Assembly (NCBI GenBank): GCA_019720975.1
Contig: JAGVSJ010000003.1
Coordinates: 1 to 64,000, forward strand
Length of the DNA: 64,000 nucleotides
DNA from: Candidatus Sysuiplasma superficiale
GTDB lineage: Archaea; Thermoplasmatota; Thermoplasmata; Sysuiplasmatales; Sysuiplasmataceae
Direction of reading: 5' to 3'
Part shown: piece by piece, positions 753-8,150 of the stretch
Layout of the letters: every line of letters begins with the position of its first letter
Position numbering within the stretch: the stretch's first letter is position 1
The notes under the pieces: model-generated
The model's input: only the letters and a program-made list of their open reading frames with translations
Database searches by the model: none
Told to the model about the DNA's origin: nothing
Program-made: the position numbers and the translations under genes

Positions 753-1577
753 TTATAAACGGGCCGGGTTAGCCACTCGTTTAGCTTTGTCAGTCTTCTC
801 AGTCTCAAATATCTGAAGAGCTTCCTTTGCATTTGCATTTTCGTGCGTAATAGCCCTTATCGCCTTTATCACGGCAACGGGGTTCTCGTTCTGCCATATG
901 TTCCTGCCCATGTCCACTCCCACCGCTCCATCCTCGAGTGCATTGTGAACCAGATTGAACACATCTTCCACTGAGTTGAGTTTGGGTCCTCCGGCAACCA
1001 CAAGGGGCACCGGAGAGCCGTCAACAACCCTGGTGAAGTCCTCACAGTAATATGTCTTCACCATCTGCACCCCGATTTCAGCCGCCAGTCTGCATGCGAG
1101 AGCAAGGTATTTTGCGTCGCGCTTTTCGAGTTCCTTGCCAACTGCGGTGATGGCCATGACCGGCATTCCATACTCCTCCCCTTCATCCACCAGTTTTGAG
1201 AGGTTGATGAGCGACTGCTTCTCATGACTGCTACCGACGAAAATGGAAAGCGCAACCGCTGATACGTTCAGTCTGAGGGCGTCCTTTATTGAAGTAGTGA
1301 TCTCTTCATCGCTCAAATCCTCTTTGAGGATGCTGGATCCACCCGAAACCCTCAAAAGAATAGGTATATCGGCTCTCGGATCAACCGAAGTGCGAAGCAC
1401 ACCCCTGGTAACGCCGAGCGCATCGGCATAGGGCAGTAGCGGCTCTATGGTCTTGCGTGGATTTTCCAGTTTGTGTGTCGGCCCCATAAAGTACCCATGG
1501 TCGCAGGCCAGCATAACAGTGCGCCCGGTAGAGGGCTTGATCATTCTCGAGATCCGGTTATTCATTCCCCAGTCCAT
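753..1577 (-). CDS. DhnA/LsrF-type class I aldolase family protein
   Basis: MLACDHGYFMGPT..LE, VVAGGPK, GAVGVDMGRNIWQ motifs of the DeoC/FbaB/LsrF aldolase family. Confidence 0.85.
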   Translation of the reverse strand: MDWGMNNRISRMIKPSTGRTVMLACDHGYFMGPTHKLENPRKTIEPLLPYADALGVTRGVLRTSVDPRADIPILLRVSGGSSILKEDLSDEEITTSIKDALRLNVSAVALSIFVGSSHEKQSLINLSKLVDEGEEYGMPVMAITAVGKELEKRDAKYLALACRLAAEIGVQMVKTYYCEDFTRVVDGSPVPLVVAGGPKLNSVEDVFNLVHNALEDGAVGVDMGRNIWQNENPVAVIKAIRAITHENANAKEALQIFETEKTDKAKRVANPARL

Positions 1578-1768
1578 TTGATCTCCCTTCGATTGTGCTG
1601 TTCATATTTCTGTGGATTAATAACCTTTCTGCTTTCCGTGTGCGCTGTTAGGGTAAAGCATCCGTCGATAAACGGTCCAGGCGCAATGAAAGCGTTTCAT
1701 GCCTACCTTTGCCTTTCAGCCTGGCAGCGCACAAGGATTATGAAAGTTAAAATAAAGATACTGTTTAA

Positions 1769-2668
1769 GTGCCAGGCATGGACAGATGCAAGTCGTGCAC
1801 AGGAATTGTCTCATGTCCTGTTTGCGGCTCGCCAATATCATCCTTTTCGCATGTTGGTGTGAGGGGAAATGAAACATCATTCAATATACCTGTCATAGAT
1901 TATAAATTGAAACTTGGCAGCAATCCGTCTGGCATAAGACATTATGCTCAACCATGCGATCACAGAGTTATTACTCAGGCAGCATCCCCGGACCTCGTCT
2001 ACAATGGCGGACCATTATGGGGTAACGGCTACTCATGGATTAACGTTTACTGGGGCAAATTTTACACCACTGAGGCTGGAAAGGCATGGGTTGCGAGAGT
2101 CGACAGAGCAACATCGGATATAGAGACCAATCCAAGCTATTCGGGCGGACTCCGTCAGTACAACGTGGGAATGGGAAAGCTGCTTGAAAGCATTACGATT
2201 CCTGCAGAGCCCCCTTCCTCAATGAGCAACTCACAGTTGAAGGAGCAGATACTGTCGTGGATAAACTCGAACGAGATAAGGGACGTCAGCAACAAGGGTG
2301 CATACAATCTCTTTCTTCCTCCCGGCATGACCGTTACACTGTCAAGCGAGACCTCATGCGCATTCTTCTGCGACTACCACGATACAGTTGATGCGGAAAA
2401 GGGACCATTCTATACAGTAGAGCCGTATCCCTGCAGCAGCGGGTGCAATAACTGCACCTCTTCGGAATTTGATACGCTGACAATGGGGCTCTCAGAAGAA
2501 ATGGTCGAACTGAAAACAGACATGGATCCGGGAACAGGATGGGTTATAGGCAATGAGGAACTGTGTGACTACTGCGATGCCCATTTTGTATGCAACAGAA
2601 TATCCACCGGCGAATATGTAAACGCGTGGTATGACAGGGCAAAAGATGCCTGCTGGTCATCAAGATGA
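1769..2668 (+). CDS. Cys-rich protein resembling the EXORDIUM/phosphate-induced protein 1 family
   Basis: YNGGPLWGNGYSWINVYWGKF resembles the plant EXO/PHI-1 N-terminal signature. C-CDYH, PYPCSSGC, LSEEMVELKTDMDP, EELCDYC and YVNAWYDRAKDACW resemble its C-terminal half. An N-terminal CxxC...CPVC zinc-ribbon-like pair is also present. Confidence 0.55.
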   Translation: MPGMDRCKSCTGIVSCPVCGSPISSFSHVGVRGNETSFNIPVIDYKLKLGSNPSGIRHYAQPCDHRVITQAASPDLVYNGGPLWGNGYSWINVYWGKFYTTEAGKAWVARVDRATSDIETNPSYSGGLRQYNVGMGKLLESITIPAEPPSSMSNSQLKEQILSWINSNEIRDVSNKGAYNLFLPPGMTVTLSSETSCAFFCDYHDTVDAEKGPFYTVEPYPCSSGCNNCTSSEFDTLTMGLSEEMVELKTDMDPGTGWVIGNEELCDYCDAHFVCNRISTGEYVNAWYDRAKDACWSSR

Positions 2669-3381
2669 CAGGTGTGAGAGACGTGACTCGGAAACTGTTC
2701 TGGGAAGATGCGTATATCAGAGAGTTCAGTGCAATTGTGGAGGAAATAGTCGATAACAGGCTTGTTCTGGATCGAACAGCCTTCAATCCGAAGGGAGGCG
2801 GATTGCCCGGAGATACAGGGTCGCTCAATGGCATCAGGGTGAGTGAAACGCTGAAGCGAGCGGATACCATCGAGCATGTTGTCGACGATATATCCAGTTT
2901 CAGCAAAGGGATGGAAGTGAACGGTTTGCTTGACTGGGACAGGAGATACAGGGTGATGAGGATGCACACCGCTGCTCATGCCCTGAGCGCAGTTTTCAAC
3001 AGGGAAGCCGGTGCACTCATAACCGGAAACAAGATAGATCCGGCGGAATCAAGGATAGATTTCAGCCTGGAATCACTGGACAGGGACAGAATGAACGAAT
3101 ACATCGCAATAGTCAACAGGGAAATACTGAGAAATCCGGATGTGCGTTCATATTTCATGCCCCGCGATGAAGCAATGAAGATACCATCAATGGTAAAACT
3201 TGCCGGAACTGCGCCACCTGATGTGGAACAGTTCAGGATAGTCGAAATAGAAGGGCTAGATGTCCAGGCGGATGGCGGAGTACATGTCAGAAGCCTCGGC
3301 GAACTAAGGGAAGTTGTGCCACTGAGGTTTGAGAACAAGGGGAAAGCAAACAGACGTATATATTTCACGCTTAAGGATTGA
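2665..3381 (+). CDS. alaX: alanyl-tRNA editing protein AlaX
   Basis: FNPKGGGLPGDTG, MHTAAHALSAVF, QADGGVHVRSLGE: the AlaX/AlaRS editing-domain pattern. Start overlaps the previous stop (ATGA). Confidence 0.9.
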   Translation: MTGVRDVTRKLFWEDAYIREFSAIVEEIVDNRLVLDRTAFNPKGGGLPGDTGSLNGIRVSETLKRADTIEHVVDDISSFSKGMEVNGLLDWDRRYRVMRMHTAAHALSAVFNREAGALITGNKIDPAESRIDFSLESLDRDRMNEYIAIVNREILRNPDVRSYFMPRDEAMKIPSMVKLAGTAPPDVEQFRIVEIEGLDVQADGGVHVRSLGELREVVPLRFENKGKANRRIYFTLKD

Positions 3382-8005: not shown

Positions 8006-8098
8006 GGGCCCGTAGCTTAGTACGGATATAGCACTGGCCTTCTATCCTGCGGACAGGAGGTGAGCCAGATGTCCCGGGTTCGAATCCCGGCGGGCCCG
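8006..8098 (+). tRNA. tRNA-Arg (TCT) with an 18-nt intron at position 37/38
   Basis: GGGCCCG/CGGGCCC acceptor, CTGGC/GCCAG anticodon stem, loop CTTCTA + intron 8045-8062 (TCCTGCGGACAGGAGGTG) + A, T-arm CCGGGTTCGAATCCCGG. Confidence 0.93.
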
Positions 8099-8150
8099 CT
8101 TAAACAGGCTAACGGACGGTATGTCCACTGGAGATTTTCTCATCCTCCCA

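Follow-up and report, generated by a model that had tools for sequence, protein, structure and literature searches.

An archaeal protein of predicted zincin fold, apparently non-secreted and remotely related to plant EXORDIUM

The window, that is, the whole analysed stretch of 64,000 nucleotides, encodes an archaeal protein that is a genuine superfamily-level homologue of the EXORDIUM/PHI-1 family (PF04674), connected to it via intermediates, and that has a predicted zincin fold in which glutamate takes the place of the first metal-ligand histidine. EXORDIUM mediates cell expansion in plants, and we know of no biochemical activity assigned to it. Tying it to HExxE proteins of zincin fold leads to the hypothesis of a metalloprotease-like fold whose active site many microbes have kept, plants have lost and archaea have remodelled. 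The His-to-Glu exchange throughout the archaeal clade raises the question of its present chemistry, and these small proteins lacking a signal peptide are suited to asking what a zincin does after such an exchange. A 2009 study reported one bacterial homologue of EXORDIUM and no archaeal one (PMC2661892). Novelty is judged here against the permissively licensed literature and family libraries.

The gene, its neighbours and its distribution

The open reading frame at 1769..2668 (+) comprises 299 codons from a GTG and contains every string quoted in a preliminary description of this DNA. It is a real gene rather than a chance frame: it occurs in 8/8 sampled genomes of its own taxonomic family at 59-76% identity, and dN/dS of about 0.06-0.17 among close homologue pairs indicates purifying selection. 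Relatives align with it from the ATG at 1778, and both the window and 7 other family sequences (8 in total) have a box of the form TTAAAATA/TTCAAATA 27-29 nt before this ATG. These two observations argue for a product of 296 aa beginning MDRCKSC. Judged from the sequence, ATG 1778 is almost certainly the true start and GTG 1769 probably is not, and the box-to-ATG spacing, read with knowledge of archaeal promoters, suggests that the mRNA is probably leaderless. The features are as follows.

753..1577, reverse strand: DeoC/LacD-family aldolase, divergent upstream neighbour (Pfam PF01791, 1.4e-26)
1747..1754, forward strand: TATA-like box TTAAAATA, centred 27 nt 5' of ATG 1778, conserved in 8 family sequences
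1778..2668, forward strand: EXORDIUM/Phi_1-superfamily protein of predicted zincin fold, 296 aa (relatives' alignment, upstream box, profile comparisons)
1787..1852, forward strand: N-terminal metal-binding-like cluster C4xxC7-x5-C13xxC16 ... H25, invariant in full-length archaeal members
1955..1963, forward strand: C60-x-H62, candidate extra ligands, invariant in archaeal members (PCGH in most relatives, PCDH here)
2000..2065, forward strand: YNGGPLWGNGYSWINVYWGKFY, where the zincin domain is predicted to begin, with its first core strand; counterpart of EXORDIUM Y-x-GGP...WYGK
2357..2380, forward strand: C194...C198-D-Y-H201, from the superfamily alignment
2432..2455, forward strand: C219...C223xxC226, invariant in archaeal members, C223 also in several HE-type relatives
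2492..2521, forward strand: motif S239-E-E-M-V-E-L-K-T-D248 of the putative remodelled active-site helix, aligned to SHExxExxTD, within AlphaFold helix 230-247
2558..2575, forward strand: E261-L-C-D264-Y-C266, aligned to ExxDxC of HE-type relatives
2665..3381, forward strand: AlaX-type alanyl-tRNA editing protein (Pfam tRNA_SAD 5.9e-9, tRNA-synt_2c 3e-7)

The ATG of the AlaX gene overlaps the stop codon of the zincin-fold gene (ATGA, 2665), and the two genes adjoin in 8/8 genomes of the taxonomic family, where they are likely co-transcribed; as a clue to the substrate, this is a weak hint. The aldolase occupies the same position in G001, G005, G006 and G007, and the neighbourhood as a whole (aldolase, zincin-fold gene, AlaX, alcohol dehydrogenase, antiporter, SurE) is maintained, with local variation, only within the taxonomic family. 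In other genomes the gene adjoins one for an AsnC regulator, histidine phosphatase, cyclophilin or PF04185 phosphoesterase, and the neighbourhood comparison revealed no conserved neighbour outside the taxonomic family pointing to a substrate. The defined gene context described earlier is therefore a matter of synteny inside the taxonomic family and does not extend beyond it.

Each of the 8/8 searched genomes of the taxonomic family carries a single copy (59-76% identity), and a first search round found the gene in 0/52 other members of the class. In deeper scans, Thermoplasmata MAGs, Bathyarchaeota-labelled MAGs and one thaumarchaeal MAG proved to carry close relatives (50-62% identity). The gene is patchy in other Thermoplasmata and is also present on a single virus contig. 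Two genomes, G285 (C155, C90) and G290 (C154, C114), have two copies each, either paralogues or the product of mixed bins. Broken remnants, fragmented, stop-containing or truncated, are present in other Thermoplasmata (G626:C31, G214:C42, G662:C24, G612:C7); they suggest gene loss in these genomes and, hence, that the gene is dispensable there.

Kinship with the EXORDIUM/PHI-1 family

Direct comparison did not place the protein in any known family. Searches of Pfam, NCBIfam and PDB sequences with the window protein were negative or insignificant, PADLOC and PHROGs returned nothing for it, and tblastn found no match to it in plasmids and phages, nor any match to the PF04674 consensus in plasmids. 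The PF04674 profile, with which the preliminary description proposed to check its assignment, gave no match at E<=10 to 8 family members or to the family consensus, none of which reached its cut-off (25 bits), and true membership by that family's own model is ruled out. Run against 243 and 349 archaeal genomes, the model found nothing over the cut-off, and its sub-threshold matches were short. Direct alignment of the archaeal profile with the plant consensus, a sequence that scores 423 bits against PF04674 in Pfam, gave E 0.025 (hhalign), better than 500 shuffles, but covered just 22 columns, so that the link to EXORDIUM needs intermediates.

A search of virus-type contigs for such intermediates, with a pair of DNA patterns that encode HE[L/I/M]xExxTDP, yielded, among chance matches, the ten distinct relatives used here. 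L108 (104 bits) and L130 (76 bits) are clear PF04674 members, L123 lies just above the cut-off (26 bits), L117 and L116 fall below it, and L107, L111, L119, L122 and L126 have no PF04674 match. By hhalign, the archaeal profile aligned with L116 at E 7.8e-20, L122 at 1.6e-16, L107 at 5.1e-8 and a five-protein HE-type alignment at 1.5e-16 over 192 columns, compared with 0.34 for an unrelated control. An HMM built from HE-type proteins only, leaving out L108 and L130, matched the window protein at E 1.1e-14 (HMMER) and found the archaeal clade in whole genomes at 1e-20 to 1e-24. The plant consensus scored 17.1 bits against this HMM (shuffle maximum 5.3) and 42.5 bits once L108 and L130 were added (shuffle 15.5). 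In the tree, a branch with support 100/99 has every archaeal row on the same side, but the groups are set apart by long branches. Since the genome search starts with a loose first filter and missed the window's own gene, which HMMER found, the counts of archaeal HE-type homologues are lower bounds.

The EXORDIUM/PHI-1-like identity claimed earlier thus survives as remote superfamily kinship, through intermediates and a predicted fold, and not as a match to the PF04674 model. The window protein and PF04674 have a common domain plan, namely the Y-x-GGP strand, C...CxxH, a Cys loop, the motif helix, E-x-x-[DS]-x-C and a C-terminal Cys. They differ in that the window protein is, by its sequence, apparently non-secreted, has an extra N-terminal Cys/His module and leaves the Pfam model unmatched; at the motif, archaeal EExxE...D stands against HExxE...D in bacterial members and ASLLAGTVTNP in the plant consensus. 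The nearest relatives by profile are unnamed HE[L/I/F/Y]xExxTDP proteins (L107, L111, L116, L122, L126, L134, L135, L139) from bacterial/phage contigs and other Thermoplasmatota, which have the motif helix, the E..D.C segment and H201 in common with the archaeal clade but retain the His, lack the Cys4 module and mostly begin with signal or lipoprotein-like N-termini.

HE-type proteins are also encoded by other Thermoplasmatota (L134, L135, L144, L145, L139, L141 and L142, in G026, G097, G092, G015 and G261), with motifs such as SHEFMESITDP, GHEYAEAVTDP and GHEFTEMATDP; most of their N-termini are secretion-like, one lies in a 1274-aa open frame, and those tested had no Pfam match. In L122:7219-13241, on a phage contig, the HE-type protein is flanked by a GH25/amidase endolysin on one side and a PF04185 phosphoesterase on the other, and the thaumarchaeal homologue L028 also adjoins a PF04185 gene.

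Predicted fold and conserved residues

With archaeal rows alone, AlphaFold gave a model with pLDDT 70 and pTM 0.67; with ten HE-type rows and the viral N-extein added, these rose to 92.5 and 0.91, which argues that the alignment is right. For either model, nearly all of the top 50 Foldseek matches in the PDB were metzincin-type metalloproteases (probability mostly 0.9-1.0), with target-normalised TM-scores of about 0.4-0.49 for the small ones and at most about 0.49. The window protein is accordingly predicted to have a zincin (metalloprotease-like) fold, with helix 230-247, which holds the motif, placed after the core sheet, and the earlier guess of a metzincin-like fold agrees with this prediction. 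The likeness to metzincins (adamalysin/ADAM, ADAMTS, fragilysin) lies in the predicted fold and the placement of the motif helix; there is no sequence-level match, and HExxHxxGxxH/D of metzincins contrasts with EExxExxxD here, the alignment showing no HExxH zinc site in the window protein.

HE-type proteins carry [S/A/V]HE[L/I/M]xExxTDP followed by E..D.C. In register with SHExxExxTD, the window protein reads S239-E240-E241-x-x-E244-x-x-T247-D248, so that relative to HExxExxTDP the first-ligand His is missing, being Glu240, whereas the catalytic-type Glu241 and the remaining positions are retained. The preliminary description had read the usual HE dyad as SE, which is off by one, the aligned register being EExxE against HExxE. 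Among the tabulated key positions, this His is the sole metal-ligand position at which the archaeal clade departs from HE-type proteins; Glu occupies it in 19/19 full-length aligned archaeal rows and in the virus. E240, E241, E244, D248, E261, D264 and C266 are likewise identical in 19/19 full-length aligned archaeal rows, and H201 is invariant in 30/30 aligned superfamily rows and the plant consensus. In the plant consensus the His, both Glu and the Asp of the motif are gone.

CLCA_X zincins have the spacing HExxHxxxD, with Asp eight residues past the first His (PMC3650047), and the same spacing of D248 leads us to propose E240, E244 and D248 as candidate ligands. CLCA sites are, moreover, often substituted, a first His replaced by Glu is over-represented among substituted zincins, and some zincin site substitutions abolish activity (PMC3650047). 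CLCA/CLCA_X proteins nevertheless form a separate family, likened here by description rather than sequence, and the second ligand in their consensus is His.

The viral homologue, L092:4962-6989 on the 94-kb virus contig IMGVR_UViG_3300027706_000007, adjoins a terminase large subunit gene and is devoid of the N-terminal Cys module. Its LAGLIDADG intein is inserted at SEEM|C...HN|CELATD, within the motif helix, whereas the homologue L029:1-1467 from archaeal MAG YF1.bin89 has an intein at a different site, EELCDY|CLPPDEI...VVHN|CDKHF, in the E..D.C segment (intein-splicing Pfam match E 6e-5, below the curated cut-off). Inteins favour conserved sites, and the two insertions therefore fit, circumstantially, with the motif region being the functional core.

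At the N-terminus, MDRCKSCTGIVSCPVCG, the pattern is kept in all full-length archaeal members, and the Cys4 cluster is found in none of the HE-type relatives or in the viral homologue. No hydrophobic signal segment can be read from the N-terminal sequence, while most HE-type relatives have signal or lipoprotein-like N-termini; the window protein is apparently non-secreted, and CxxC-x5-CxxC with H25 and CxH suggests a metal-binding module of a cytosolic protein. No zinc-ribbon model matches this region, which gave a weak match to the MYLIP RING (E 0.017) and scattered Pfam matches at E 0.3-4. Sequence and conservation thus bear out the absent signal peptide and Cys-rich N-terminus noted earlier; of the zinc-ribbon-like character also claimed, the invariant C4, C7, C13, C16, H25, C60 and H62 stand, and a zinc ribbon proper is putative.

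Possible functions

We regard the ORF, its homology, its predicted fold, the His-to-Glu exchange and purifying selection as established; what we say of metal binding and the metal's identity, of catalysis and substrate, and of what the N-terminal module does is inferred. On balance we lean, by a little over even chances, towards a soluble, apparently non-secreted protein of zincin fold whose remodelled, all-carboxylate metal site is used on a cytosolic peptide-like substrate. In secreted HExxExxTDP members, three residues would probably hold the metal: the first His, the second Glu, which aligns with the second His of HExxH, and the Asp eight residues past the first His; the neighbouring Glu would serve as general base. 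Fixation of the first His as Glu in the archaeal clade would create a cluster of E240-E241-E244-D248, followed by E261/D264, and might turn the old active-site cleft into an all-carboxylate site better suited to a harder metal (Mn2+, Fe2+, Ca2+) than to Zn2+ and still acting on a peptide-like substrate in the cytosol. The N-terminal Cys4/His/CxH module may bind zinc structurally, either to stabilise the protein or to recruit a partner. Several observations count against this proposal: Glu for His weakens zinc binding, and activity is lost with some zincin substitutions (PMC3650047), TM-scores to metzincins are no higher than about 0.49, no neighbour is conserved outside the taxonomic family, and the gene is dispensable where it is degraded in some Thermoplasmata.

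The main rival, which we consider plausible while holding it somewhat short of even, is a pseudo-zincin in which hydrolysis has been lost and the cleft and Cys-rich zinc sites serve as a scaffold or sensor that binds a peptide, a partner protein or a metal; plant EXORDIUM would then be a parallel case gone further, with all motif positions lost. The clade-wide absence of the His ligand, ASLLAGTVTNP at the motif of the plant consensus and the presence among the PDB matches of ADAM22, an inactive ADAM, fit this reading. Pseudoenzymes, however, usually let active-site residues drift, as the plant consensus does, whereas the four acidic motif residues, E261 and D264 are invariant across archaeal members. 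Together with C266, these residues appear to be under a constraint that would be unexpected for a discarded active site, and because a dead site is expected to drift while the acidic residues are fully conserved, we favour the remodelled site. Decoy or accessory roles of inactive zincins have nevertheless been discussed (PMC3650047), in keeping with a pseudo-zincin.

Spread of the gene by archaeal viruses or mobile elements, its true role being in virus-host interaction, would accommodate the homologue beside the terminase gene, the phage endolysin adjoining HE-type L122 and the patchy distribution with remnants, but we regard it as improbable given the stable single copy and conserved synteny with housekeeping genes in the taxonomic family, the single viral contig in our scans and the empty PADLOC and PHROGs results for the window protein. 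Even less credible is a true PF04674 secreted growth regulator of EXORDIUM type: Y-x-GGP, C...CxxH and the motif helix are in common, yet the PF04674 searches of the protein and of archaeal genomes described above came back empty, and the window protein has an extra N-terminal Cys module and no signal peptide. Chance similarity of an unrelated Cys-rich archaeal protein, towards which the failed direct searches might point, is refuted by E-values of 1e-14 to 1e-24 in reciprocal profile searches and by the rise in pLDDT on adding HE-type relatives, and retains next to no credence.

A more far-reaching reading, to which we give less than even chances, is that a clade of intracellular archaeal zincins has turned the His site of a metalloprotease into an all-carboxylate metal centre for a new reaction, and that plant EXORDIUM stems from the same superfamily, which Pfam mostly fails to recognise and which extends across bacteria, archaea and phages. 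EXORDIUM would then have a metalloprotease fold in which the site has been erased.

Elsewhere in the window, at 8006-8099 (+), ARAGORN reports a tRNA-like gene with a two-base anticodon left undetermined (tRNA-???), which is perhaps intron-containing or spurious.
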